NCBI GenBank assembly: GCA_016868315.1
Contig: VGHE01000019.1
Location: 1 to 35,506 of the forward strand
Reading direction: 5' to 3'
DNA: 35,506 bases
Source of the DNA: Betaproteobacteria bacterium
GTDB taxonomy: Bacteria > Bdellovibrionota_B > Oligoflexia > Silvanigrellales > Silvanigrellaceae
Position numbers and translations under genes: made by a program. Shown here piece after piece: positions 1 to 30,190 of this stretch; within the stretch, counting starts at the first letter, position 1, and the number at the start of each line of letters is the position of its first letter. A model generated the notes under the pieces. The model was not told the DNA's origin, ran no database searches, and was given only the letters and a program-made list of their open reading frames with translations.

Positions 1-1824
1 AAATGTGACCGGAGTGCAAATATTATGTGAGTCGTTGTTGATTGGTTTTCCCGTATCAGCACGCATCAATGCAATTTGCCACGGATCGTTTTTTTCGATT
101 TTGATTTCGAGGCTGCCAAGATAGGTTGCCTGTGTTGTGTTGAGTTTCGCGGTGGCCGTGATTTTGGGAGGATTCGGATTGTTTTGTGGGTGGGTTGCAT
201 CATAAAAGCAGGCCTTTTGAATTGAGCGCGCAAGGCCTTCTACAAATTCAACGCCCTGTTTGTTGAGTGCTGAACCAATATTGACCTGTTCTCCCCAATG
301 TGCCTTTTTGAAAAGAACGGGTGCAGTATCTGCGTTCTCGATTTTAACGACAATGTCATGTTTACCCTTTACGGTGGGTACAATGTTTCCGAAGTCGTCT
401 GAGGCGTACATGTCGATTTCGACGCATGTTGCCGCTTTCACGGTAGGAGGTGTAGCCTTTCCGGTGGCGTCGCGGTCGGGCGGTGTACCGTTGAGATTGA
501 ATGCCCACTGCTTGAATTCATTCGCTGGCACTATGACCGGCAACGGACGATACAGTTGAAGGTTGTCGGCCGTAACCTCGAGATATGCCGTACCCGTTTT
601 CTTTGGGGCAAAAGTTACTTTTTGTGCAGTTGTGGTTCTTGTTCCCTGGGTTCCCGATATTCCCTCCGCGAGGCGGTCTGAGCCTATTTCCCATTTGGCA
701 CTGGCCACATCATCGAGGTAGTTACCGTTGCCATCAATCCAAGCAGCATAGAGTTCTGTTACTCCACCAGGCAACATTTTGATTTCGTCGAATCGCGTGG
801 TCAGTTCATTCGGGCGTCCTGGGGTGTTCTTAAGGGCGATGAACTTCCGCACGTTGTCTGATGTGACCGTTATTTTTTCGGTGATAGGCTCAAGTGAGTT
901 ATCGAGCAGCGAAACCGTTATCGAGAGTTCTTCAGGTACACGCAGTACAAAGGGGCCTTTCGGGATAAGGCAGCGTCCGCCGGTAAATTCGCAGGTCACT
1001 TCGCCGTTCGGGAAATCCGGCTTGAATCCACCCCAGGATGTTTGTGGCGCGGCGTCGAACTTGACCGTCTTCACGCCTTCAAACGAGGTTGCAATGCGGT
1101 CGGAGTTGTCGCGGACGTTCAACCAGATATCAAATTCGTCGCCGGCTTTTTCTTTTCTCGATCCACTTGTGGAAAGCGTAAGTCGTGCTCCGCCTTTGGT
1201 GTCCGAAGTGCTCAATACAGCATGCGTATACAGGGGTTTGAATTTTGCATCGCGACCCGCCTTAGCAAGAACAGCAATCTTCTTGTTGAAACCTGTGGGT
1301 GCAAAAATCCAGACGCGTGCTTTTCCTTCTTTGCTCGTGCGGGCATCGAATTGCTCAATACGGCCAACACTCTCTTCAATTTCATCCTCTGGCTTTTTCG
1401 TGCTGGTACTTCCATCTGCATTGGACACTGTCGCTGTTTTTCCGGCCAGAGCCGCTGCTGCCGAGTTTTTAATGGCTGAGTCTGAGGACGTCATCGCAGC
1501 CTTCGGGGTATCCCAGGCCTTGGCCAGAACATCGGCCGAGACGTTATCTTCCGAACCCAGGTCTTTGGCTTCAACAAGTCGGTATTCCATGACCGCGTCG
1601 CCCACGGGTTGCCCGGAAACATCAACAATCTTGATTTCAACAGGGCTCCCGAAGGGTCGGCGGGGCAGAGTGATCTGCGCACCTCCTGCAACTTCAACCT
1701 TCCAACCGAGTTCGGCGTTCTCGGCCACTTTTCCAGAACAAGAAACAAGGACAACGCTTATCGCGATGCCCCCCAACAGCGACATCGCGAGGTTTTTCAG
1801 TGACTTGTGAAAAACTCCCGTCAT
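1..1824 (-). CDS. Ig-like-repeat surface lipoprotein (3' end outside window)
   Basis: An open frame of 608 codons runs from ATG at 1824 leftwards to the window edge without a stop, so the C-terminus is missing. The N-terminus is a lipoprotein signal: basic start, hydrophobic stretch, then lipobox LVSC with the acceptor Cys at residue 29. The rest is rich in beta-prone stretches, Thr, Val and Asp, with phrases such as 'GQPVGDAVMEYRLV' and 'DDFGNIVPTVKGKHDI' that resemble invasin/Big_1-type Ig-like modules ('...D..GNPV...'). I infer tandem Ig-like domains on a lipid-anchored envelope protein. It is the last visible gene of a leftward cluster with the barrel protein and the PEGA lipoprotein; 87 bp separate it from the barrel gene. 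No catalytic motif is visible. Function is unknown; adhesion or a structural envelope role is a guess. Confidence 0.8.
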   Translation of the reverse strand, partial: MTGVFHKSLKNLAMSLLGGIAISVVLVSCSGKVAENAELGWKVEVAGGAQITLPRRPFGSPVEIKIVDVSGQPVGDAVMEYRLVEAKDLGSEDNVSADVLAKAWDTPKAAMTSSDSAIKNSAAAALAGKTATVSNADGSTSTKKPEDEIEESVGRIEQFDARTSKEGKARVWIFAPTGFNKKIAVLAKAGRDAKFKPLYTHAVLSTSDTKGGARLTLSTSGSRKEKAGDEFDIWLNVRDNSDRIATSFEGVKTVKFDAAPQTSWGGFKPDFPNGEVTCEFTGGRCLIPKGPFVLRVPEELSITVSLLDNSLEPITEKITVTSDNVRKFIALKNTPGRPNELTTRFDEIKMLPGGVTELYAAWIDGNGNYLDDVASAKWEIGSDRLAEGISGTQGTRTTTAQKVTFAPKKTGTAYLEVTADNLQLYRPLPVIVPANEFKQWAFNLNGTPPDRDATGKATPPTVKAATCVEIDMYASDDFGNIVPTVKGKHDIVVKIENADTAPVLFKKAHWGEQVNIGSALNKQGVEFVEGLARSIQKACFYDATHPQNNPNPPKITATAKLNTTQATYLGSLEIKIEKNDPWQIALMRADTGKPINNDSHNICTPVTF

Positions 1825-1911
1825 TTTGCTACTTTTCTCCACCGGACCTGTTCCAGTCCATAGGATGGGATCGTCTTTTCGGGGCTTGAACTTTAGGGCT
1901 GGGTTGAGGTG

Positions 1912-2511
1912 TCAGAGAAGCAAAAAGAGACCAAATCGTGCCCGGATAAGCAACCCGGAAAAAGGTGCCGGGCTTGTGCCCAGGGCATAGGAGCCGTCGA
2001 TGTTGGCATCTAAGGCCACAGAGCGCGTGAATTGATACTGCGTGCCCGCGCCCCCTCCCACAGAAATGTAATTGGATGCAATTTCAGAGAGTGCTGTGAG
2101 GTCGGAAGTTGTAATAAAATAGCGGCCGTAGCCTACTTTGCCATGGATGTAAGGCTTCAGGTTGGCTGTATACTTTATTTGGCTCGTGGGGTGAAGGTCA
2201 TTGAAGTCGACCCCATAGGCGAATGGGTAGTACTGCACACCTGCACGTGTTTCCATAATTTGGGTCACCTGGAACTTATTCGAAAGCGCAACCTGGAATT
2301 CTCCCACCGCCGCGAGAACCCTCGATTGAAAGGAAACCCACTTGAAGTCGAAGTTCTTTACAAACATTTCGGAAGCGGGCTGATAGCCACTTGCGTTGCC
2401 GAGTATAACGCCGGTTGAAACAACGACAGCAGAATTCACCTCTGCAAACGCTGCGGGGTTTGCAAAGAGGCATCCAAATCCAACAAAGGTCGATGGCTTA
2501 AACAATCTCAT
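1912..2511 (-). CDS. outer-membrane beta-barrel protein
   Basis: A 199-residue protein with a signal peptide (cleavage likely after AFA, residue 23). It is followed by alternating polar/hydrophobic strands and many Gly and aromatic residues, ending in a short hydrophobic segment (FGLFLLL). That is the pattern of a small 8-stranded outer-membrane barrel of the OmpA/OmpW/OprF-like 'beta-barrel' type. The start ATG overlaps the TGA of the upstream PEGA lipoprotein gene by ATGA (2508-2511), so the two are probably translationally coupled. The C-terminus does not end in the classical aromatic residue, but barrels with a Leu end exist. The exact family and any ligand cannot be told from the sequence. 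Confidence 0.75.
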   Translation of the reverse strand: MRLFKPSTFVGFGCLFANPAAFAEVNSAVVVSTGVILGNASGYQPASEMFVKNFDFKWVSFQSRVLAAVGEFQVALSNKFQVTQIMETRAGVQYYPFAYGVDFNDLHPTSQIKYTANLKPYIHGKVGYGRYFITTSDLTALSEIASNYISVGGGAGTQYQFTRSVALDANIDGSYALGTSPAPFSGLLIRARFGLFLLL

Positions 2512-3158
2512 TTCTTTCGACCTTTGGGAGCAGCCGCGGGTGGTTCCGCACTGCCGCCCACATCGGAGAGCATTGAGCGCACTTCTGTGTCTTGAGGATC
2601 GAGCGCGAGAGCTTTGTAGAGTGCCTCTCGGGCTTTCTCTTTATCGTTCTGAAGTGAGTAGGTGTAGCCTTCGAAGTAGTAGATTGCTGCGATGTTTGGG
2701 TTTGCAGCTTTGGCCTTTTCAAGCGTCTTGAGTGCTTCTTTGAGATTACGGTCGATGATCTGGCGCTCGGCTTCGAGAACCAAACGGACAGCCAGATTCA
2801 CCGTACCGAAATCCTCCGAACCCAGCGGCTGCAGGAGTGCTTCTATTTCGAGTTGTCCACCCCCAAGATTCGGTACAACAAAGTTCTGGCTCACATAGCC
2901 TGAGCGTTTTACGGTGAGCACAATCGTGCTTGTGTTCGCAAGCTTTTTAATTTCTGCAAGGTCTTTGTTGTACGGGGTTGGTCCCAGAAGTTGTGGGTTT
3001 TCGCGGCCAGGCACAGAAAGATAAACCTCTGCACCGCTGGGCTTGCTCTTTATGCTCACCGATGCGCAACCACTGGTGAAAAGGGTTGCGAGGAGTGCGA
3101 GTTGGCAAAAAGGCCGAATTTTTTGCGTTACGTTATGGTTTCTGAAAACTTTGTTCAT
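2508..3158 (-). CDS. PEGA-domain and TPR lipoprotein
   Basis: A 216-residue exported protein. The signal sequence ends in the lipobox-like TSGC with Cys at residue 31. Residues about 32-112 form a PEGA domain: 'SIKSKPSGAEVYL' followed by the 'VKRSGYVSQNFVV' strand. Residues about 125-197 hold two TPR-like helix pairs ('AIYYFEGYTYSLQNDKEKAR', 'ALYKALALDPQD'). The tail is Ala/Pro/Lys rich. PEGA domains are common on envelope and spore-surface proteins. TPRs suggest a protein partner. A GGAG ribosome site lies before ATG 3158. It is the first gene of the leftward operon and is divergent from the motor operon across a 250-bp intergenic region. An accessory role for that motor is possible but not shown. 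Confidence 0.82.
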   Translation of the reverse strand: MNKVFRNHNVTQKIRPFCQLALLATLFTSGCASVSIKSKPSGAEVYLSVPGRENPQLLGPTPYNKDLAEIKKLANTSTIVLTVKRSGYVSQNFVVPNLGGGQLEIEALLQPLGSEDFGTVNLAVRLVLEAERQIIDRNLKEALKTLEKAKAANPNIAAIYYFEGYTYSLQNDKEKAREALYKALALDPQDTEVRSMLSDVGGSAEPPAAAPKGRKK

Positions 3159-3408
3159 TTTGCATTCTCCAACAAGGTCATTCTAAAACAACCAATCTGA
3201 AACAAAAGTGCACCCTCAGCCACCCTCGTCAGCAAAATTGTAGGGGTGAGTTCGGAATTTTCGTATCCCGATGAAATTTTCGTCGCCGTCAGTTCGATTC
3301 ACGGCACTGCAATTTCTACCTCCAGCGTCCTGAATGTTTTTTAAGCTTTTCCGATTCCTACCATACGCAGAGGTGTGTCAGCACGCGTCTGTACTTTGGG
3401 AGGATGGA
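3159..3408. other. divergent intergenic region
   Basis: About 250 bp separate the leftward PEGA operon from the rightward motor operon, so both promoters should lie here. I could not pick a convincing -35/-10 pair, a sigma-28-type site or a sigma-54 site by eye. A short direct repeat AATTTTCGT occurs twice around 3256-3282. An in-frame ATG at 3334 would extend the motor gene upstream by 25 codons, but it lacks a ribosome site and spoils the signal peptide. Confidence 0.5.
3398..3403 (+). promoter_or_regulatory. ribosome binding site deciding the fliF/fliG-like start
   Basis: GGGAGG lies 5 bases before ATG 3409. Starting there gives a normal signal peptide (basic/hydrophobic/AYA cleavage). 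The longer frame from 3334 has no such site and would place 25 polar residues ahead of the signal sequence. Confidence 0.8.
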
Positions 3409-5673
3409 ATGTTCAGCATTCCGCAGTTGTGTCGTTCAATCGCTTTGGCGCGAGTGCTTTGTGTACTTGCGGCATTGCTGTTGTCGCATTCTGCCGGACT
3501 CTCCAAAAACTTTGGCTCGGCATACGCGCAAACAAGTGGCCGTGCGAACCTGAACCAAACCCTCGATGCGAAGGTGGCCGAGGCCGAGGCCTTCCTCGAA
3601 GAAAGGCTCAACAAGCGCCTTGAGGCCATTGCCGAACCTCCGTTCCTGACCATTGTCAAAGTCGACTTCCCGGTGGCTAAATTGAATGCCCTCCGTCAGA
3701 GCGCAGGAGGAAACCTCTCGAAGCTCTCTCGCGGTGCAGTTTCCAAAGGAATCACCGGAGACGATGCACTTATTAGCCTTCTCAATGCCCTCACGCCCTT
3801 GGAGATTCTCTCCAACGCAGCGAAGGTGAATATTTCCGTGACGCTTGATGTTTCGTTTCCGAAAGATTCCATCGCTGAATTGAAAAATTCTCTCTCGGCA
3901 TTTCTCCGCCTCAACACAAAGCGCGGTGACACTCTGGATGTGAATCAAAAAGACCTGACCGCAGGTAAGTCAAAAACCAAAGTTGAACGCGCTGAGAAAG
4001 AAAATCAGCAAATAAAATCCCAGGTGGATTCTCTGCAACGTGAACTTGAATCGATCCGGCGTCGGGAGAGCGATGCCCAGCGTGAGGTTCAGGAAGCACG
4101 TCGGAAAGAGCAAGACGCCCAGGCGCAGCTGCGCGAATCACAGCGCGTTGCCGATGATGCAAAGAGCAAAGTGCGTGACGAACAAGACAAAACCAACAAG
4201 GCCGAAGAGGCCAGGCGCAAGCTTTCGGCGGAAGTCGATGAGCTCAAGAAGCAGATTACAGAGCTGAACCAAAAGAACAAAGACCTCACCGACGATGCCA
4301 ATACGCCCGCGGGTAAAGTCAGAAAACTGATTGCAGGTCTTGAATTGCCTCTCACAGTCATTCCGGCGGTGCTGCTGGGTTTATTGGGTGTTCTGGTCAT
4401 TGTTCTCCTGCAAACGTCTCGGGTGAAGACTGCCAGCACCGACATGACGGCAACCATGATGCAGGTTTCAGCCGCTGTTGCAAAAATCGGTGAATCTATC
4501 GTTCAAGCTGCCAAAGTGCAGGGTAAGCAACAGGGTGAAGCTATCAACATGGCAGGTCCTGGGGGAGCTGGGATGCAGCAGAATCAGCTGCAGTCTTCTG
4601 GCGATTCAACTTCTGAAGAGTTGATTGCACTTGAAAAGGAAGCTCAGAGTTTACTTGTTGACATGAATCAAACACGCTATGCCATGCTCAGCGTGCTGAA
4701 GGATTGGGTGGCTGACAAGCGCGAACGGACAAAGTTTGCCGGGTTCTCCGAGGCTGTTGGGCCGAATGCTGCGCGGGAGATCTGGAAGAGTTTTCCGAAA
4801 GAGGAACTCGAGCTTCTAGGCAACGCTCTTTACGAGCCCATGGCAAAAGCACAAGCCTACAAAGTTGTTCTGCAGCTCTATCGCTTGGCTGGCCGCGAAA
4901 TCAGCCGGAAGCCGAGCTACTTCTCGAACCTGGATATGATTTATTTGATCTCGGCAACCGACTCAGAGCTGAGCAACGCTCTCTCGGAAGCAGAGACAAT
5001 TTCCGCGGCTAGGCTGATGGTTTTGCTGACTCCTGAGCGCTGTGCTCGTGTCATTGGTGGATTGCGCAATCACGATAACGTTGAGCTGCTCGAGGCTATG
5101 CGCGAAGCGACCAACATGAGCGAAGACGACGCCAAAGGTGCAATTGCGGCAATCAAAGGTCTTATCAAGAGCGATCGTGGCGACTCACGATTCGATGTCA
5201 CGAGCCATTTGATGCTGATGCTCGATGCTCCTAATCCCGAATTCAGAACTGCGGTCAGCAAAGTTCTCCGTGCCGACAAATCGCTCTCGGCATCGGTAGG
5301 CTCAAGGGTTGTGACGATTGAAGAGGTTTTACGCCTTGACGACGAAACTCTAGCCGAGCTTCTTGCAGAGCTTGAGCCAGCAGATGTCGCCACGTTGCTT
5401 GTGTCGCTTCCGGAAGAGCTCAACGAGCGTATTAATCAATTCTTTACCTCTGCAAAGATCCAGGCGGCTATCCGGCAGGAGCTCGACAAATTCAATCGCT
5501 CTCGTACAGCGCGTAAGCGTGCTGAATTTGAGGGTCAAAAAATTCAGGCGGCACTTATCAAGCAAGTGAAGGATATGCGTGAGCAAGGACTCATTGAGCT
5601 TGCAGGCGAAGCCTCTGGTGAAGGTGCAGGTGACGACGAGGGTGGTTCCGAAGCTGAAGCGGAGGCCTCCTAA
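3409..5673 (+). CDS. FliF-RBM3 / coiled-coil / FliG-like fusion, putative motor rotor
   Basis: A 754-residue membrane protein. Residues 1-40 are a signal peptide or TM1 (AYA/Q). Residues about 45-180 resemble the FliF ring-building motif RBM3: a helix with 'LEERLNKRLEAI', a strand 'LTIVKVDF', then 'KVNISVTLDV' and a helix ending in 'FLRLNTKRGDTLDV', which matches the FliF signature '..V(G)F...RGD.(L/V).V'. Residues about 190-300 are an unbroken charged coiled coil. Residues 312-335 are a membrane helix. The cytoplasmic part (340-754) has a FliG-M-like segment (about 510-590) and a FliG-C-like segment (639-732: 'EEVLRLDDETLAELLAELE' to 'MREQGLIEL'). By hand alignment K683 falls at E. coli FliG R281 and E691 at D289. 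The FliM-binding EHPQ motif is absent. MotA/MotB-like genes follow directly. Inference: MS-ring and rotor functions in one chain, working without a FliM/FliN C-ring. The FliG similarity is firmer than the FliF similarity. Confidence 0.75.
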   Translation: MFSIPQLCRSIALARVLCVLAALLLSHSAGLSKNFGSAYAQTSGRANLNQTLDAKVAEAEAFLEERLNKRLEAIAEPPFLTIVKVDFPVAKLNALRQSAGGNLSKLSRGAVSKGITGDDALISLLNALTPLEILSNAAKVNISVTLDVSFPKDSIAELKNSLSAFLRLNTKRGDTLDVNQKDLTAGKSKTKVERAEKENQQIKSQVDSLQRELESIRRRESDAQREVQEARRKEQDAQAQLRESQRVADDAKSKVRDEQDKTNKAEEARRKLSAEVDELKKQITELNQKNKDLTDDANTPAGKVRKLIAGLELPLTVIPAVLLGLLGVLVIVLLQTSRVKTASTDMTATMMQVSAAVAKIGESIVQAAKVQGKQQGEAINMAGPGGAGMQQNQLQSSGDSTSEELIALEKEAQSLLVDMNQTRYAMLSVLKDWVADKRERTKFAGFSEAVGPNAAREIWKSFPKEELELLGNALYEPMAKAQAYKVVLQLYRLAGREISRKPSYFSNLDMIYLISATDSELSNALSEAETISAARLMVLLTPERCARVIGGLRNHDNVELLEAMREATNMSEDDAKGAIAAIKGLIKSDRGDSRFDVTSHLMLMLDAPNPEFRTAVSKVLRADKSLSASVGSRVVTIEEVLRLDDETLAELLAELEPADVATLLVSLPEELNERINQFFTSAKIQAAIRQELDKFNRSRTARKRAEFEGQKIQAALIKQVKDMREQGLIELAGEASGEGAGDDEGGSEAEAEAS

Positions 5674-6517: not shown

Positions 6518-7486
6518 GTGTCACGTCGGGGTCTGTTCGAAAATTCAGGAGATCATGCTTCGCCTCTTGAGGGTGCGGCAGGGCGTTCTCTTGAAAAGAA
6601 AAAGCACACCCCTGCGCATCACCCCAAGAAACACAAAGGTGGTGATGATCACGGTGGCGGGGGTGGTGGTCACGAGAGCGATGACACACTTTGGCTCTAC
6701 TCGTTCAATGACATGCTTTTTAACCTGCTTCTGTTCTTCATTGTGATGTATTCCATCTCTCAGGTCGACGAGAAAAAGTTTGCCGAAGTTCAGCAGGCAC
6801 TTCAGGGTTCAAAGAAGCCACAACTTCTCAAAGAAGAAGAAGACAAAGATGGCGTTGTGATTGGACCCCGTAACGGTGCACTTGATGCCAAGCAGCTTGC
6901 CTCCTCGGGTGGTGAAGCAGGTGGTGATAAGAGTGCCGAGATTGCAGCTGCAATTCGTTTTATGCTTGAACGCTCTCAGAAAGCAGACGTCAAATTGGCG
7001 AAGGGAGCCGGCAAAGAGGAGCAGAAGAAGGAAGAGGCGACCAAAAAAAGCAAATATCTTTCCGGAACAAACATTCCACTGCCGATGCAGCTTGCATTTA
7101 CCTCGAAGGAATTTTTTGCCCCAAAAAGCGCGGAGCTCACCCTTGAGGGTATGGAAAACCTCAAACAGCTTGCTGAAGAAGTGGCAAAGCAAGAGACTCT
7201 TGGAAAAGTTGAAATCGAGGTGCACACCGAGTTCACCCAAGACACAATCAATAGCCCAAAGGCAGAGAGCTCGTTCGCAGACCTCAAGCTCTCCACCGTG
7301 CGGGCAGGTGTGTTTTTTGAATATTTTTTGAAAGCGGGCATTCCCCATAAAAAGGTGGTGAGCGCGGGCTACGCCGATGGACGCCCCTTGCTGTCTCTTG
7401 CCACCATGTCGCCAAAGCAGCGGGTTGAGTTTGCTGAATCCAACGAACGCATCGTTGTGAGTCTCAGCAAGGAGAAAACGCCATGA
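6518..7486 (+). CDS. MotB-like stator protein with OmpA-like domain
   Basis: 322 residues. The start is GTG 6518 with AAGGAG 6 bases upstream; the nearby ATG at 6514 is out of frame. Residues 25-57 form a His/Lys/Gly-rich cytoplasmic tail. One membrane helix (59-80) reads 'YSFNDMLFNLLLFFIVMYSI'. D65 falls at the position of the proton-carrying Asp of MotB ('AyaDFmtalmaFFlvmW'). After a charged Lys/Glu linker, residues about 200-320 form an OmpA/MotB peptidoglycan-binding domain. 'FFAPKSAELTLEGMENL', 'LSTVRAGVFFEYFLKAGI' and 'SAGYADGRPLL' are recognisable. The usual GHTD and NRRVEI motifs are degenerate (VHTE, NERIVV), so binding may differ. It should pair with the MotA-like protein and anchor it to the wall. 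Its stop overlaps the next start by ATGA. Confidence 0.88.
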   Translation: MSRRGLFENSGDHASPLEGAAGRSLEKKKHTPAHHPKKHKGGDDHGGGGGGHESDDTLWLYSFNDMLFNLLLFFIVMYSISQVDEKKFAEVQQALQGSKKPQLLKEEEDKDGVVIGPRNGALDAKQLASSGGEAGGDKSAEIAAAIRFMLERSQKADVKLAKGAGKEEQKKEEATKKSKYLSGTNIPLPMQLAFTSKEFFAPKSAELTLEGMENLKQLAEEVAKQETLGKVEIEVHTEFTQDTINSPKAESSFADLKLSTVRAGVFFEYFLKAGIPHKKVVSAGYADGRPLLSLATMSPKQRVEFAESNERIVVSLSKEKTP

Positions 7487-8418
7487 AGTTTTCTCTCGGT
7501 TTTCTCTCTGGCTTTCAAAAGTTCACCGCAGCAGGAATACTTGCTGCGCTCGTTGCGCTCTATTTCGTCAACCGTCGTCAGGAAGACAAATGGGAACGCT
7601 TGAAGAAGGGGTTGGCCGAGTCTTATGGTGAAAGCCCAGTCAGCCCGACCGACTCTCCCGTGTATGCCATCGATCTCGAAGGTGAGGCAAAATACAAGCG
7701 CCCGTCTTGGCTTAATTGGTGGCCTCTGAAGCCAGGCATTGAGCTTCAGCCCGGCGATTTGGTTTACGTGTCCGACGAGTCGAAGGTTGTGCTTTACTTC
7801 ATAAGCCAAGATTCAATTGTGACGTTGCCAGAGGGTTCCCTTTTCCATGTTGGCCTTACTGTTCCGCAGATGTCCAAACTGCGCACATCGGGTGGTGTCT
7901 CCTCTGAAATTGGCGGGGAGCCCGAGAAGAAGGTGAAATCACCTCTGACAGAGGCACGATTTTCAACCCGGGTCATTCAAAACCCAGGGATAAAAAAGGC
8001 GGGAGCTCCTGAGAGCGATCCGGCCAATCGCCCGCCGGAAGTTATCACAGACGAAGACCTCAAAATTGTGCGCAACACGCGCACACTGAATATCCGTTAC
8101 CCCGGAGCAAACGTTGAGGTCTACGCAAGTCAGTTTCCAACCTCCATACCCGTGACTTTTGAGAATTCCGACAAAAGGATTCAGCTTTGGGGCTATCTGT
8201 GGAAAGGAAAAGAACTTGAACCACAGTGGTCATCGGTGGCCTCATCTGGTTTTCCTCGGGTGCCTATCGAAAAACCAGGCAACTATGTTTTTCAGGCCAT
8301 GTCGGAAGATGAGCTTTATGCTTCACCGCCAATCCTGATTCGTGCGGTCAAACGCGGAGAAGAGGATTACCTGCCCGAGCCTGAGAATTGGCTCGAGGGA
8401 GTGAGGGTGTACCAATGA
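7483..8418 (+). CDS. membrane-anchored FecR-like periplasmic protein
   Basis: 311 residues. One N-terminal membrane helix (about 11-28) is followed by a short charged region and a periplasmic part. Residues about 62-125 have the FecR-like pattern: an L..GD.V stretch ('LKPGIELQPGDLVYV'), then 'SKVVLYFISQDSIVTLPEGS'. The C-terminal half (about 185-300) looks like an Ig-like or FecR C-terminal beta domain, with 'NVEVYASQFPTSIPVTFEN' and a final 'PGNYVFQAMS'. ATGA overlaps couple it to the MotB-like gene before it and the phosphatase gene after it, so it belongs to the same operon. FecR-type proteins often act as periplasmic sensors or scaffolds. Here it may sit around the periplasmic part of the motor. 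No known motility protein is clearly matched. Confidence 0.7.
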   Translation: MKFSLGFLSGFQKFTAAGILAALVALYFVNRRQEDKWERLKKGLAESYGESPVSPTDSPVYAIDLEGEAKYKRPSWLNWWPLKPGIELQPGDLVYVSDESKVVLYFISQDSIVTLPEGSLFHVGLTVPQMSKLRTSGGVSSEIGGEPEKKVKSPLTEARFSTRVIQNPGIKKAGAPESDPANRPPEVITDEDLKIVRNTRTLNIRYPGANVEVYASQFPTSIPVTFENSDKRIQLWGYLWKGKELEPQWSSVASSGFPRVPIEKPGNYVFQAMSEDELYASPPILIRAVKRGEEDYLPEPENWLEGVRVYQ

Positions 8419-10688
8419 ATGCCCAACTCCAGAATGCAAAATCGCGCTTTTCGAATACCTTCCTCTATAAGTTATTCGATTTCTTTTCGTTGTGGGATAG
8501 AAGTAGCCTTAAAAGCCGTTTGACGTTCACCCAGACGTTCATTTTGATTGTGAGTATTGCCGCCATTTTGGTTGCGGGGATTAGCCTTTATCGAAACGAC
8601 AAGCTCTCTTATGTTTACGAAAATCATTATCTCAAAACGAGCGCAGTAGCGACACGCCTCAAACTCTATTTTTCGAATCTCCCTCGCCAAGATATTCTAC
8701 TTGTTAAGGGCACAGAAGAGGCAAAATTTGCGAGCACCTACGGACTCCCACAGCTGCCCGCCGAAGATCAGGTCTTTGTTGGAAGACGAGGCGAGAAGGT
8801 GTTTGTTTTTGGACGCGAGGGTGGCGAGAAAGTCTGGCGCACTGAACTCGACCCCAATGTACAGCTTTTTGAGGGAATCGACGGCAAAAGCTACATCGCG
8901 AACTCATTTGGTCAGTTCATTTCCTCTTATGACAAACGCGATGTGAATGCCTCGAACTTCACATCGCGTCCCGGAACTAAAAAGTTCATTAAGAGCGGTT
9001 TACGCGAAGGCTTCACTCGCTACACCGACGGTGAAAACGAATGGATTATTTCCTTTCGGGAAATCCCAGGGACAAATGTGATTACCTTTGTGGAAACCTC
9101 ACTTGCTTCCTTGAACGCACCCATCCGCAAGTTTGCCTCTGTGGCTGCCGTCATGGCGCTCGTTTTGGTGGGGTTGGTTGTCCTTTTAACTGACTTCCTT
9201 TTGCTTGGCCTGTTGCGTCCATTGCGCGAAATCGTGAATGCCATGTTCAAAATTTCCGCGGGTCACTATGACATTCAGTTCAATGTGAAGTTCGATGAAG
9301 AACTCAATTTCGTTGCTCGTGGATTGCAACAGATGGCAAAGCGCCTGGAAATTCGTGAGGCGGAGTTGCGCCAAATCAGCGCCAACCTGGAATTCGTGAT
9401 GAAGGTCACCAAAGAGATGTCTCTTATGCCTAATCGCGACGAATGTTTGCAGATGATGATCAAACAAGTGCGCAACTACGTTCGCTTCAAGCCCATTATG
9501 GACGCCTCAGCTGTCATCTTTGAACTTGGAACAAATGCACCCAAGGGAGTGATTGACTATGTGCAAATGGGTTCAGTGGTGCCAGAGCTCAATATTCTGA
9601 GCCTTGAGGCTGCTGGTGTGGACTTGGAGGAGCTCACCTCGCCAGAGTCTGTGAGCATGCTCGGCACGACCGTTATTTTGCGCGCTTATGCGGGTGAAGA
9701 GCTCAAGATGATTCTGATGCTCGATGGCTTTCCTGAAGACAACATGAGCACCATTGAGCGGCATCTCATGACACTCCTTGCTGCATCGTTAGGGCATGCA
9801 TTGGTGATGTTTGATTTCCAGGAAGAACGTCTGGCAACCGCACACTTCGAAAACGAACTGGTCACCGCCCAAGCAGTTCAATCTGCACTTTTGCCATCCT
9901 CGCGTCCGGTGATGAACGCAGATCTCGACTTCCACTACGAAGCCGCATCGAAGTGCGGTGGCGACTGGCTCTTCTTCGATAAGTCCGAAGAGAGCCCGTG
10001 GCTGCATGCATTGGTGGGCGATGTGACCGGTCACGGGGTTCCCGCCGCAATCATGACAGGTGTGGCGTATGGAAGCTTTATGGGCGCTCAGGCCGTGATG
10101 GAAACGCTGCGCGCCACGGAAACGATGGGCGAAACCGATCGCCTCGAGTTCATGGCTGCGATTTTGAATCGTGCCATTTTGAGCGTGGGTAAGTCAGCTC
10201 GCCTCATGACCATGTGTCTTGTTTCTCTTAATACCGACACCGGTGAGTTGTACTATGCCAGTGCAGGGCACACCCCTCTGCTTTGGTACCGCACCAAAAC
10301 GAAGAAGATCTCACCCCAGACATCTACCGGAAACCCACTTGGAGTTTCGCTCGATCGAACGATAACGGTGAAGAAATTGCAGCTCGAGCAGGGCGACCTT
10401 TTCGCGCTGTTCACCGACGGTCTCCTCGAGAACCATGGACCCAAGAAGGATATGTTGCCCAAGCGCCGATTCTACGACCTGCTCTCGAGTGGGCGACCTG
10501 TGCGTGACATTTGTAAGAGCATTATGGATGAAGCTAAGGCTATTTGGCAGGATGAAGAATACGCAGACGACGTCACAATGCTTATCGTGCGTTGGCCCGC
10601 AAGCGAGCAAGTGGTGGTCAATACCGATCCTCTTCCCGATGCCCCTGCAGACCTTGCCGGGGAAGGTTCCGCAGCACCCGCGGCCTGA
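8415..10688 (+). CDS. membrane HAMP-GAF-PP2C (RsbU/SpoIIE-type) serine phosphatase
   Basis: 757 residues. ATG 8415 is chosen because it forms an ATGA overlap with the previous stop; an upstream start at 8388 would overlap by 31 bases. Order: TM1 (38-58), extracytoplasmic sensor region (about 60-235), TM2 (about 241-268), HAMP (269-325), a GAF-like region (about 345-475) and a PPM phosphatase domain (about 490-735). All metal-site signatures are present: 'GGDW' (D517), 'GDVTGHG' (D536), 'FTDG' (D668) and 'ADDVTM' (D718/D719), plus 'AQAVQSALLP'. It should dephosphorylate a Ser/Thr-phosphorylated anti-sigma-antagonist (STAS) or similar partner in response to a periplasmic signal. Its position as the last gene of the motor operon suggests it reads or controls the motor. 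The HATPase protein at 32717-33691 is a possible pathway partner. Confidence 0.9.
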   Translation: MNAQLQNAKSRFSNTFLYKLFDFFSLWDRSSLKSRLTFTQTFILIVSIAAILVAGISLYRNDKLSYVYENHYLKTSAVATRLKLYFSNLPRQDILLVKGTEEAKFASTYGLPQLPAEDQVFVGRRGEKVFVFGREGGEKVWRTELDPNVQLFEGIDGKSYIANSFGQFISSYDKRDVNASNFTSRPGTKKFIKSGLREGFTRYTDGENEWIISFREIPGTNVITFVETSLASLNAPIRKFASVAAVMALVLVGLVVLLTDFLLLGLLRPLREIVNAMFKISAGHYDIQFNVKFDEELNFVARGLQQMAKRLEIREAELRQISANLEFVMKVTKEMSLMPNRDECLQMMIKQVRNYVRFKPIMDASAVIFELGTNAPKGVIDYVQMGSVVPELNILSLEAAGVDLEELTSPESVSMLGTTVILRAYAGEELKMILMLDGFPEDNMSTIERHLMTLLAASLGHALVMFDFQEERLATAHFENELVTAQAVQSALLPSSRPVMNADLDFHYEAASKCGGDWLFFDKSEESPWLHALVGDVTGHGVPAAIMTGVAYGSFMGAQAVMETLRATETMGETDRLEFMAAILNRAILSVGKSARLMTMCLVSLNTDTGELYYASAGHTPLLWYRTKTKKISPQTSTGNPLGVSLDRTITVKKLQLEQGDLFALFTDGLLENHGPKKDMLPKRRFYDLLSSGRPVRDICKSIMDEAKAIWQDEEYADDVTMLIVRWPASEQVVVNTDPLPDAPADLAGEGSAAPAA

Positions 10689-27053: not shown

Positions 27054-29150
27054 ATGAACATCGGTTTGGGACAATATGGCCTCTTTGCCGTAGCAAATGC
27101 CACGGCTCATGAGCTGACCTATGAGATTCCTGAATCTCTCCGTCCGCAAATGGCGGCAGGGGTGTTGTGTGAATTGCCTGTTCAGGGGCGTCGCGCTGTC
27201 GGGGTATTTCTCAGTTTTTGTCCCAAACCTGAATTCAATTGTCGACCCGTGACAGCTCTCCTCCCAGACTGTCCGAGCTTGAAGCCGCGTGTGCTCGACC
27301 TTCTTCAGTGGCTATCGCACTACTACCTCGCGCCGCTGGGGCGCAGCATTCATTTGGCTGCACCTGGGTTTGTGTGGAATGCCTTGGCTCATGCCAAAAG
27401 ATTGAAGCGCCAGGAGCGAGTGCTCGCAAAACAGGCGCGAGCCGCATCAGTGCCAAAAGCCCAAGGTGCGCTTCAAGCGCAGCCTCTGAAAACTCTCAAT
27501 GCAGAGCAAATCAATGTTTATGAAGCGCTTCGTGGCGTCGAGCCAGGACACACGGCTCTGTTGCAGGGAGTAACGGGAAGCGGCAAGACCGAGGTTTATT
27601 TGCACCTTGTGCGTGACGCTCTTCATGCCGGAGGACGCGCGCTTGTTCTTCTTCCCGAAATCGCACTCACGCCCCAAATGTGTGAACGCTTTCGGGTTCA
27701 CTTCCCCGAAGAACTCGCCGTGCTTCACTCTGGGCTGAGCAATGTTGAGCACGAGCGTGAATGGTACAGAGTTGCTCGTGGAGAGGCTCGTGTGGTTCTG
27801 GGGGTGCGTTCTGCTGTGTTCGCTCCAATGGACGAGCTGCGCTTGATTGTTGTCGATGAAGAGCACGAGCAGAGTTATAAGTGCGATGAGTTCCCTTGCT
27901 ATCATGCTCGTGATGTTGCGGTAAAACGTGCGCAGCTCGAGAACGCGAGATGTGTTTTGGGAAGCGCAACTCCTTCGCTCGAGTCGTATCTCAACTCAGA
28001 AAGAGGCAAGTACAAAAAAGTGCTGCTCCGGGTGAAGCACTCACGCCAAACCAACCGTGTTGAACTTTTTCAGTATCGTCCGAAAATTCACTCAAGCGGT
28101 GGTCTTGCGCGCGGTGTTGTGCGCTCGTCTCAGTTTTCCTTTCAGGGTCATGTCATGGCTCCTGGAGTGGTTGAACTGCTTCGCGAAACACAAGCGCGCG
28201 GCGAACAGAGTATGGTTATTCTCAATCGTCGTGGTTTTGCTCAGTTTGCTTTGTGCGGTGACTGCGGAGTGGCACTGCAGTGTCCTCATTGCTCTGTGAG
28301 CACAACTTTGCATTCACGCGGCAGCAAAGAGCTTTGCCATTACTGCGGTTTCTCGCGACCTATCTTGAAACATTGTCCTTCATGCGGTTCCGAAAAACTT
28401 GTGCAGATGGGGCTGGGAACCCAAAACATGGAACAGGAAATCACCGAGCGTGTTCCTGGAGTTGTTGTTGATAGGCTCGATCGCGACGTTCTCACAAGTG
28501 CAACGCGCTTGTCGGAAATCATCAAGCGTTTTCGTACGGGAGAGACGCAGTGCCTTGTTGGAACCCAGATGCTCTCCAAAGGTCATGATTTTCCGCGCGT
28601 AACCTTGGTGGTTATACTGAATGTTGAGGATGGCCTTTTTGTGCCAGATTTTCGAGCCTCAGAGCGTACTTTTCAGCTTTTGTGCCAGGCCTCTGGTCGC
28701 ACGGGGCGCGGTGAACTCCCCGGGCTCATTGCTGTCCAATCCTTGGGCGCAAGTCATCCCGTGGTTTCGCTTGCTTTGGAAGGAAACATCGATCGCTTCC
28801 TCACAGATGAGCTCAAGATGCGCCAGCTCGGATGGCATCCGCCTGTGTGCCGGCAAGTTCTCGTAGAAATGCAGCATGCGAGTGAAGCGCACCTCATGCA
28901 ACTTGGCTCTGTGCTGCAGAGAGAACTCACAGCCGCTTGGACCGCTCAAGGGCTAACGCCACAAAACGTGCGTTTGACTGGTCCCTTGCCAGCTGTTTTG
29001 TCCAAATTGCGGGGGCAATACCGCGTGCATCTGGTGATTGCGGCTCAGCGCGAGATTCACCCTTCACGATTGTTTCCTCAGGAGTTGATGTTTCGTAAGG
29101 AATTTCAGCATCTTTTGAAGGTAGATGTCGATCCCTTCTCCTTCCTTTGA
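27054..29150 (+). CDS. priA: primosomal replication restart helicase PriA
   Basis: 698 residues from ATG 27054, with AAAGGA 5 bases upstream. The longer frame to 26958 gives residues unlike PriA. PriA reloads the replisome at stalled forks by binding D-loops, unwinding lagging-strand duplex and recruiting PriB/DnaT/DnaB. Seen: N-terminal 'LTYEIPESLRP' of the 3' binding domain, Walker A 'VTGSGKTEVYL' (173-183), Walker B DEEH (268-271, followed by EQSYK), 'RRGFAQFALCGDCG', a zinc region beginning C401/C404 with further CxxC pairs ('CPHC', 'CHYC', 'CPSC'), 'GTQNMEQEI', 'LVGTQMLSKGHDFP' and 'SGRTGRGE', a variant of the usual GRAGR. All key features are present, so it should be active. The gap to the FliG-like gene is 80 bases. 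Confidence 0.96.
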   Translation: MNIGLGQYGLFAVANATAHELTYEIPESLRPQMAAGVLCELPVQGRRAVGVFLSFCPKPEFNCRPVTALLPDCPSLKPRVLDLLQWLSHYYLAPLGRSIHLAAPGFVWNALAHAKRLKRQERVLAKQARAASVPKAQGALQAQPLKTLNAEQINVYEALRGVEPGHTALLQGVTGSGKTEVYLHLVRDALHAGGRALVLLPEIALTPQMCERFRVHFPEELAVLHSGLSNVEHEREWYRVARGEARVVLGVRSAVFAPMDELRLIVVDEEHEQSYKCDEFPCYHARDVAVKRAQLENARCVLGSATPSLESYLNSERGKYKKVLLRVKHSRQTNRVELFQYRPKIHSSGGLARGVVRSSQFSFQGHVMAPGVVELLRETQARGEQSMVILNRRGFAQFALCGDCGVALQCPHCSVSTTLHSRGSKELCHYCGFSRPILKHCPSCGSEKLVQMGLGTQNMEQEITERVPGVVVDRLDRDVLTSATRLSEIIKRFRTGETQCLVGTQMLSKGHDFPRVTLVVILNVEDGLFVPDFRASERTFQLLCQASGRTGRGELPGLIAVQSLGASHPVVSLALEGNIDRFLTDELKMRQLGWHPPVCRQVLVEMQHASEAHLMQLGSVLQRELTAAWTAQGLTPQNVRLTGPLPAVLSKLRGQYRVHLVIAAQREIHPSRLFPQELMFRKEFQHLLKVDVDPFSFL

Positions 29151-29230
29151 GTTCATCTTTTTGTTCAATCGTCCGATCACTCCTGAGACAGGCAGCGGTT
29201 CTCGTAGGTTCCTGCTGCCCAGGGGGATGT

Positions 29231-30190
29231 ATGCCTGCCTCAGCGTCCGAGAAAGCTGCACTCATACTAAATTTGCTTGGGCACGAGCTCGCTTCAAGGC
29301 TTTTTGCCGGTCTGCCGCGGCGTGAACAGACTGCTGTGTTGCGCTCAATGGCTGGCTCTCAGATCGCATTGTCGGATGCCGAAGTGCAGGAGATTTGCAA
29401 AGAGTTTCTCAACGCTCTAGCAGACAAAACACGCTCTGGCGTGGGTGGGATTCAGTCTCCGCGGGATAGTTTTGCGGGAGTGGAGTTGCCCAGAGCATCG
29501 CGGGTCAATGAGATCTGCGAAGATATTCCTGATTGGATTCTTATTGAACACCTCAAAAATCAGCTCGACTCAGTCATTAGCGCAGTTCTGGGCTCAATCG
29601 AGAGCTCTCGTGCGGGCACACTGTTCAAAGCAATGCCCTCTGAGCGACAAACGGCGTTGCTGCTGAGTCTCAGCAAAGAGCGTGTTTTGGAAGCGACAGT
29701 CTTAGATGAACTCGAGGCAGACCTTGAGGAGCTGCGCACCCGGACAGCCTCTGGTCGATTCGGACAAAGAGTCGGGGGGGCACAGCGCGCTCTGGCTCTT
29801 GTGCAGGCGCTCGACCCAGAAATGCGTCAACGCATTCTCGAAGAGGTGGATGCACGCGAACCGGCTTTGGCAAGGCACCTCGAGGGTGGGTTGCTCTCGG
29901 TTGCCAGGCTTTCTGGGCTTTTGCCTGCACATCTGGCTCTGCTTTTGGCTCAACTCAAAGACAACGACATTGGTTCATTTCTGAGGGGGGAATCCGAGCA
30001 AATCCAGGTGGCCTACCTATCTGCTTTGTCCAAGCGTCGGCGGGAAGATATCGAGTGCCTGTTGACGCCTGAGAAAAAGATAACCCAAAAACAAAAATCG
30101 GAGGCGTGTGAACGCCTCCGCTCATGTGCTCAGCAAATGAAGGGAGAGGGGAGAATCATCTTCCCATGGGAAGAGAGCCTGGTGAGCTGA
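29231..30190 (+). CDS. FliG-like protein (full length, divergent, no EHPQ)
   Basis: 319 residues from ATG 29231 with AGGGGG upstream. The frame extends to TTG 29147, but FliG proteins begin near this point. All three FliG parts are recognisable. Residues 5-62 are the N domain ('SEKAALILNLLGHELASRLF', 'DAEVQEICKEFLNAL'). Residues about 93-170 are the middle domain, where FliG's FliM-binding EHPQ motif is replaced ('LKNQLDSVISAVL'). Residues 182-319 are the ARM/C domain starting with the hinge GG (182-183) and ending 'GEGRIIF' like FliG's 'GE(I/M)VI'. By hand alignment to E. coli, R252 sits at K264 and R269 at R281, while C276/L277 replace D288/D289. No other flagellar gene is nearby. It may be a second rotor-side component working with the fusion/MotAB operon. 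The 3' end also encodes a terminator on the other strand. Confidence 0.75.
   Translation: MPASASEKAALILNLLGHELASRLFAGLPRREQTAVLRSMAGSQIALSDAEVQEICKEFLNALADKTRSGVGGIQSPRDSFAGVELPRASRVNEICEDIPDWILIEHLKNQLDSVISAVLGSIESSRAGTLFKAMPSERQTALLLSLSKERVLEATVLDELEADLEELRTRTASGRFGQRVGGAQRALALVQALDPEMRQRILEEVDAREPALARHLEGGLLSVARLSGLLPAHLALLLAQLKDNDIGSFLRGESEQIQVAYLSALSKRRREDIECLLTPEKKITQKQKSEACERLRSCAQQMKGEGRIIFPWEESLVS
30087..30120 (-). terminator. intrinsic terminator, minus strand, inside the FliG-like gene
   Basis: Read on the minus strand, CGGAGGCG and CGCCTCCG form a perfect 8-bp GC-rich stem with a 6-base loop (30099-30120). It is followed by ATTTTTGTTTTT (30098-30087). This is a strong rho-independent terminator about 150 bases beyond the stop of the small secreted protein gene, lying in the last 35 codons of the converging FliG-like gene. 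Confidence 0.85.

Follow-up and report, generated by a model that had tools for sequence, protein, structure and literature searches.

To our knowledge, FliG is normally known only from flagella, where it is a soluble protein of ∼330 residues. In the Agl-Glt gliding system of Myxococcus, a MotAB-family motor works with envelope partners in the absence of a flagellum, while ZorAB of the Zorya systems is a MotAB-type pair that also resides outside the flagellum. In the available part of a 2026 review (PMC13104615), no FliG- or FliF-like rotor is named for Agl-Glt, and the term 'FliG' has 0 occurrences. A single MotAB-driven chain leading from the ring protein to FliG is represented by an engineered Salmonella FliF-FliG deletion fusion. 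According to the accessible portion of that report (PMC6445934), the fusion is a laboratory mutant of the flagellar motor, in which the N-terminal 94 residues of FliG are missing and FliM/FliN are still used. We found no description of a natural non-flagellar FliG-like rotor beside MotAB in the open-access literature. In the part of a paper on MotAB evolution that was available (PMC12505986), FliG is mentioned once, as the flagellar rotor.

The rotor-like protein encoded in the window analysed here (i.e. the whole stretch of 35,506 nucleotides) resembles the Salmonella fusion in that one chain appears to lead from a ring protein to FliG, and a MotAB drive is inferred. In contrast to this fusion (PMC6445934, as far as available), it is natural and, judged by its context, non-flagellar. 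With flagellar FliG it shares the FliG_C domain, profile similarity over the whole length and charged torque-helix positions, but at 754 aa, and with a membrane helix, it is a membrane-anchored chain that includes a periplasmic part, lacks the FliM-binding motif and is encoded outside a flagellar gene cluster. The likeness to flagellar FliF consists in an RBM3-like domain that ends in an RGD-type strand and precedes a membrane helix and FliG. However, neither the focal protein nor the scanned homologs matched YscJ_FliF (PF01514; RBM1/RBM2) in Pfam, a coiled coil lies between RBM3 and the membrane, and a signal peptide apparently takes the place of the first membrane anchor. A MotAB-family motor with envelope partners and no need of a flagellum is common to Agl-Glt and the present module; the MotAB-type pair outside the flagellum is common to Zorya as well, but the module has no helicase or nuclease partner.

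The open reading frame of the rotor-like protein is real, with a GGGAGG sequence a few bases 5′ of its start at 3409. An alternative in-frame ATG upstream, at 3334, would lead to a 779-aa reading. The closest named relatives are encoded on two metagenome contigs, namely RFOM01000010.1 (79% identical) and one labelled as an uncultured Silvanigrella sp. (88%, partial). The initial annotation had proposed a signal sequence, an 'RGDT' segment at residues 165–178, a coiled coil of ∼110 residues (190–300) and one membrane helix (312–335). Each of these elements was recovered with slightly adjusted borders (Table 1): the N-terminus is hydrophobic with a cleavage site inferred near residue 41, RGDTLDV occupies residues 172–178 of the 754-aa protein, residues 189–308 are charged, include only 1 Pro and 1 Gly and show a hydrophobic period peaking at 3.5, and hydropathy revealed a single strong membrane helix. 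Among 24 homologs, the linker between the RBM and the membrane ranged from 40 to 179 residues, indicating that the length of the coiled coil varies. Matches of the rotor-like protein in PADLOC (Jet, Dru) involved the coiled-coil portion only and were discarded.

Table 1. Features of the rotor locus (positions in the window; residues of the 754-aa protein).
Feature	Position	Strand	Basis or description
Rotor-like protein, 754 aa	3409..5673	+	Signal peptide, RBM3-like domain, coiled coil, one TM helix, FliG-like cytoplasmic part
Putative signal peptide, residues 1–41 (AYA-Q site)	3409..3531	+	Hydropathy, homolog N-termini; cleavage inferred, without SignalP
RBM3-like periplasmic domain, residues ∼50–180, ends in RGDTLDV	3556..3948	+	hhalign to FliF RBM3 with controls; sub-threshold PF08345 matches of homologs
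Coiled coil, residues 189–308	3973..4332	+	Period 3.5 peak; weak coiled-coil family matches
Single membrane helix, residues ∼315–333	4351..4407	+	Hydropathy; found in 24/24 aligned homologs
FliG-like cytoplasmic part, residues ∼437–733	4717..5607	+	Pfam, phmmer, family profile, hhalign
Torque-helix charge equivalents K683 (R281) to E691 (D289)	5455..5481	+	Alignment; assumed E. coli numbering
motA, 264 aa	5713..6507	+	PF01618 52.6 bits, cut-off 22.9
motB, 322 aa, plug helix, D65 and OmpA domain	6518..7486	+	PF13677 44.6 and PF00691 31.1 bits, over cut-offs
Conserved unknown, 311 aa, one TM helix	7483..8418	+	Neighbour conservation; no Pfam support for a FecR label
Membrane SpoIIE-type phosphatase with HAMP domain	8415..10688	+	PF07228 136.7 and PF00672 27.3 bits
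Envelope TPR protein, weak PEGA segment, divergent from rotor gene	2508..3158	-	TPR_8 27.9 bits, over cut-off
Small outer-membrane barrel-like protein, 199 aa	1912..2511	-	Weak Opacity match 15.1 bits, under cut-off

As far as can be judged from sequence, the FliG homology of the rotor-like protein is secure. Pfam FliG_C matched residues 647–756 of the 779-aa reading at 28.7 bits (cut-off 23.3) and exceeded the cut-off in many homologs as well, while phmmer aligned residues 545–754 of the same reading (∼520–729 of 754) with the FliG MC structure 3ajc (E 5.9e-7). A family profile of 14 homologs, searched against the PDB, matched FliG 1lkv at E 7.3e-28 and full-length FliG 3hjl at E 5.7e-15 (profile positions 383–675). 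In the single-protein Pfam scan, FliG_N reached only 12.1 bits (cut-off 25) and FliG_M was not listed, whereas the family profile covers full-length FliG (positions 383–678). Alignment of 23 homologs to 11 FliGs of the class by hhalign extended over 295 columns (probability 98.8, E 1.1e-16) and, in the focal protein, paired residues ∼437–733 with full-length FliG. The FliG-like C-terminus had initially been placed at residues ∼510–732; its relationship to FliG was thus upheld by Pfam, phmmer, the family profile and hhalign, but its start was not, since the profile–profile alignment puts it earlier, at ∼437. Another PDB match of the family profile, 6scn (E 4e-4), extended into the coiled coil and was partly compositional. 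When a model of the FliG-like part was submitted to Foldseek, each of the top 9 rows was an entry for FliG, the C-ring or the flagellar motor, albeit with low TM-scores. The EHPQR-type motif, the FliM-binding motif of the FliG middle domain, was not kept, as SEHPQT of Thermotoga maritima FliG aligned with klsaee in the family profile; its absence had been correctly inferred at the outset.

Positions of FliG residues were mapped onto the rotors via an assumed E. coli numbering. In a comparison of 22 rotors, from which L083 was omitted because it is cut by a contig end, the equivalent of R281 was K or R in 13 and that of D289 was E or D in 19, the focal protein having K and E, respectively. The equivalents of K264 and R297 were not kept across rotors, and the focal protein has R in the R297 column. 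On the MotA side, inspection by eye showed E or D in the E98 column of 15 of the 21 module MotAs and K or R in the R90 column of 13, with E and Asn at these places in the focal MotA. According to the accessible part of a previous study (PMC7564593), R281 and D289 of FliG contact E98 and R90 of MotA. In a FliG-domain tree that left out L083 and L097, both cut by contig ends, the 22 rotor parts and a single short FliG-like protein formed one group (support 94), separate from 11 flagellar FliGs (support 99).

Homology of the N-terminal domain to FliF RBM3 appears specific and is backed by several lines, yet it remains weaker than that to FliG. The focal protein alone left PF08345 unmatched up to E 1 in the single-protein Pfam scan, and a FliF match of one homolog (L024, 19.2 bits) was below the cut-off. 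A six-frame PF08345 search of 54 class genomes found true FliFs over the cut-off in 44. In these 54 genomes no rotor exceeded the cut-off of 23.8 (best 21.2 bits). Rotor proteins nevertheless made up 7 of the 10 sub-cut-off matches (G003, G005 twice, G014, G023, G025 and G031), and all seven fell towards one end of the model, within positions 77–147. With hhalign, 24 homologs aligned to 30 class FliFs over 126 columns in the RBM3 span, with a probability of 72 and an E value, for this single pair, of 3.4e-5. The score of 39.8 compares with a maximum of 17.1 after shuffling the N-domain alignment by column (60 replicates), 10.9 for the reversed control and 11.8 for FliF columns 1–230. Dropping the seven PF08345-matching rows reduced the score to 26.4 and the probability to 6.9 with the span unchanged, and when the FliG part was aligned to FliF as an unrelated control, it reached 26.1 at a different part of FliF. 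In view of these controls, the case for FliF is carried by the family as a whole and by position, and not by the focal sequence alone.

The AlphaFold models, with mean pLDDT values of 52 and 49.5, were derived from two or three near-identical sequences and are poor, and the fold matches are therefore merely suggestive. In the low-confidence model of the N-domain (pLDDT 52), the predicted order was helix-strand-(helices)-strand-helix-strand. Foldseek ranked FliF RBM3 third with this model (top listed probability 0.91, E 0.17), and FliF chains accounted for 9 of the 50 listed rows, none of them at E ≤ 0.001. VIA ranked FliF RBM3 first (Z 6.4, rmsd 3.6, 68 aligned), but unrelated rows were nearly tied. 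Hence, the initially proposed FliF-like N-domain has weaker but specific support from hhalign, its controls and the sub-threshold PF08345 matches of homologs, to which the fold comparison adds no more than a suggestion. A plain coiled-coil receptor was rejected on the FliG and FliF profile evidence. The two-part FliF/FliG-like reading of the predicted protein is supported, while a literal fliF-fliG fusion and parallel recruitment could not be distinguished.

The strongest functional evidence, missed in the initial annotation, is the adjacency of motA and motB and the conservation of the module. On the 3′ side, the rotor gene is followed by motA, motB, the gene for the 311-aa unknown and that for the HAMP-SpoIIE phosphatase, the longest ORF of which begins at 8388. 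On the 5′ side, the gene for the barrel-like protein overlaps the TPR gene. The TPR protein, with a PEGA match of 12.1 bits that is under the cut-off, is a neighbour in homologous loci too, and other loci have neighbours similar in size to the barrel-like protein. A motA gene was present within 5 kb of the rotor gene in 20 of 27 loci examined. We defined a well-flanked set of 15 loci with a rotor ORF >550 aa and ≥2 kb on both sides, drawn from 13 genomes and covering 8 of the class's 13 family labels. Within 5 kb, these loci had MotA (14/15), MotB (13/15), the TPR protein (12/15), the 311-aa unknown (11/15) and SpoIIE (8/15); the sole locus without motA in this range was that of G054. The neighbour profiles were derived from the same loci, which raises sensitivity, but MotA was plain by single-sequence search as well. 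The MotA_ExbB, MotB plug and OmpA domains of the module MotA and MotB all exceeded their cut-offs, and the MotB aspartate D65 was invariant (15/15). A Zorya system was rejected, as the module MotA had no ZorA match and the MotB matched ZorB at only 22.3 bits, versus 50.8 for the other MotB of G015.

Two further observations concern the surroundings of rotor genes. A large ORF on the minus strand (window 1–1842) runs off the window and has no Pfam match; relatives of 1885 and 421 aa lie beside the rotor in L022 and L033, respectively. The motA gene next to the second rotor copy of G005 (L027, 3427–4209) is split into two ORFs, reflecting either an assembly error or a decayed gene.

We consider it probable that the rotor-like protein serves as rotor subunit in a dedicated machine that is driven by MotAB and is not the flagellum, with ring formation, rotation and purpose being inferred. 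The parts, their order, their linkage and their dissociation from the flagellum have been shown at the level of predicted genes and proteins. It remains conceivable, if unlikely, that the module is an Agl-Glt-like MotAB machine for gliding or trafficking, in which the FliG-like protein would be a pushed cargo adaptor and not a rotating ring. The RBM3-like domain favours ring building over a single adaptor, although no Agl/Glt search data bear on this, and the recurrence nearby of TPR and small barrel-like envelope partners is reminiscent of Glt proteins. An Agl-Glt-like role would also be compatible with the statement, in the available part of the 2026 review, that the gliding machinery of Bdellovibrio is still unidentified (PMC13104615).

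Alternatively, MotAB and the rotor could sense the load on the envelope, with the HAMP-SpoIIE phosphatase relaying the signal. We regard such a mechanosensing or signalling complex as improbable, because the phosphatase, though encoded within 5 kb in about half of the well-flanked loci, is less constant than MotA and MotB.

The focal genome is flagellated (FliF, FliG, FlhA and FliM/N were found), which would be in keeping with a role of the module as a flagellar motor accessory, such as an additional stator set plus a supporting ring in contact with the flagellar rotor, but this reading is decidedly improbable in view of the distribution of the module. In G015 and G019, a rotor and MotAB are present, whereas FliF, FlhA, FliM/N and plain FliG were not found in these drafts (96 and 93% complete). 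As they are draft genomes, the absence of a flagellum is likely, not certain. Conversely, the seven same-family genomes G006–G012 have FliF and FlhA, with plain FliG only and no module. The MotA tree likewise separated flagellar-type from module MotAs. It comprised 70 MotAs, two short L027 fragments and two duplicate rows having been dropped. One 29-row group (support 90) contained 20 of the 21 module MotAs and 9 others, some of which come from loci that encode divergent rotor-like proteins; the remaining module MotA, that of G019, fell outside this group on a long branch. A separate 24-row group (support 99) held the MotA of the flagellated, module-free G006, its single MotA at E ≤ 1e-15, together with the focal-genome MotA on contig C1. 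A further group, with 11 rows (support 99), held the MotAs of another FliG-like pairing. At E ≤ 1e-15, G019 has one MotA, and the only other MotA of G015 is encoded next to a ZorB-like MotB and an AAA helicase and probably belongs to a Zorya-type system. Overall, the module occurs in about one third of the class (20 matched genomes of 58 at E ≤ 1e-25), G027 being counted by a short FliG-like ORF only; a phylum-wide search gave the same 58 genomes. In a sample of 383 genomes that extended beyond the phylum, 9 genomes from outside the class matched, and at E ≤ 1e-25 these yielded nothing but ORFs of plain FliG size (341–356 aa).

Finally, the notion that the FliG-like part has nothing to do with motors and is merely a helical repeat of the generic MgtE_N type carried by a coiled-coil receptor can be dismissed as scarcely credible: MgtE_N does pass its cut-off (30.7 versus 25.9 bits), but the family profile far prefers FliG (1lkv, 7.3e-28), across its whole length, over MgtE (2yvy, 0.016), and the rotor gene adjoins motA.

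Several related loci were observed in addition. The window itself encodes a FliG paralogue (29147–30190, plus strand) with FliG_N (47.7 bits), FliG_M (36.6 bits) and FliG_C (42.4 bits) all over the cut-off; it overlaps the end of priA, and a flagellar FliG is encoded elsewhere in the same genome. In the genus mate G002, a 343-aa match lies farther along the contig that bears its rotor gene. A second MotA-MotB-FliG-like module was found in L038 (5655–9649; G000 contig C7) and in L086, L087 and L202. Its protein of 837 to 968 aa, encoded directly after MotA and MotB, contains a single strong membrane helix, with M and C parts resembling those of FliG close to its C-terminus. Proteins of 751–764 aa are encoded beside MotA, with a TPR protein nearby, in L185 (2197–4488), L187 (6973–9228) and L186 (3672–5966). 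Each has a hydrophobic N-terminal segment and a single membrane helix around residue 304–331, L185 matched the rotor C-part profile at 7e-12, and they are probably more divergent rotors. In three genomes (L199, 3761–9506; L200, 2772–8363; L201, 7301–13118), MotA/MotB-like pairs precede an AAA_11 helicase-like protein of 1390 to 1444 aa. Since the L199 MotB matches ZorB (50.8 bits), these loci probably represent an unusual Zorya-type defence system.

If the rotor-like protein indeed serves as a rotor subunit, its copies would oligomerise via the RBM3-like domain and the FliG-like part, and ion flow through the neighbouring MotAB would turn MotA against the FliG-like torque helix. Because the FliG-like part is covalently tied to the membrane helix and the periplasmic stalk, motion would cross the membrane directly, and torque would pass via this helix straight into the stalk. 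Such a machine would operate without a FliM/FliN switch, rod, hook or filament. Should the signal peptide be cleaved, the RBM3-like domain would come to lie at the far end of the stalk, and a coiled coil of about 110–120 residues would span ∼16–18 nm (1.5 Å per residue). The stalk could then act on the envelope partners encoded alongside, i.e. the TPR protein and the small barrel-like protein, and the HAMP-SpoIIE phosphatase may regulate the rotor. The likeliest use would be flagellum-independent surface movement or envelope remodelling.

In a broader sense, the chances seem about even that the module represents a second kind of natural MotAB/FliG rotary machine, in which a compact one-polypeptide trans-envelope rotor without export apparatus, switch or filament serves a flagellum-independent task, such as gliding, in Oligoflexia-type bacteria. 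This rotor would be one branch of a wider non-flagellar set, as the class has at least one more pairing of MotAB with a membrane FliG-like protein. If so, the flagellar torque couple would be used outside flagella, also in genomes without a detected flagellum. The focal organism is not a Bdellovibrio, for which we have no module data, but the module would be a concrete motor candidate in relatives of the gliding Bdellovibrio, and it would allow stator-rotor coupling, as well as the way in which the flagellar rotor arose, to be studied in a simpler system.
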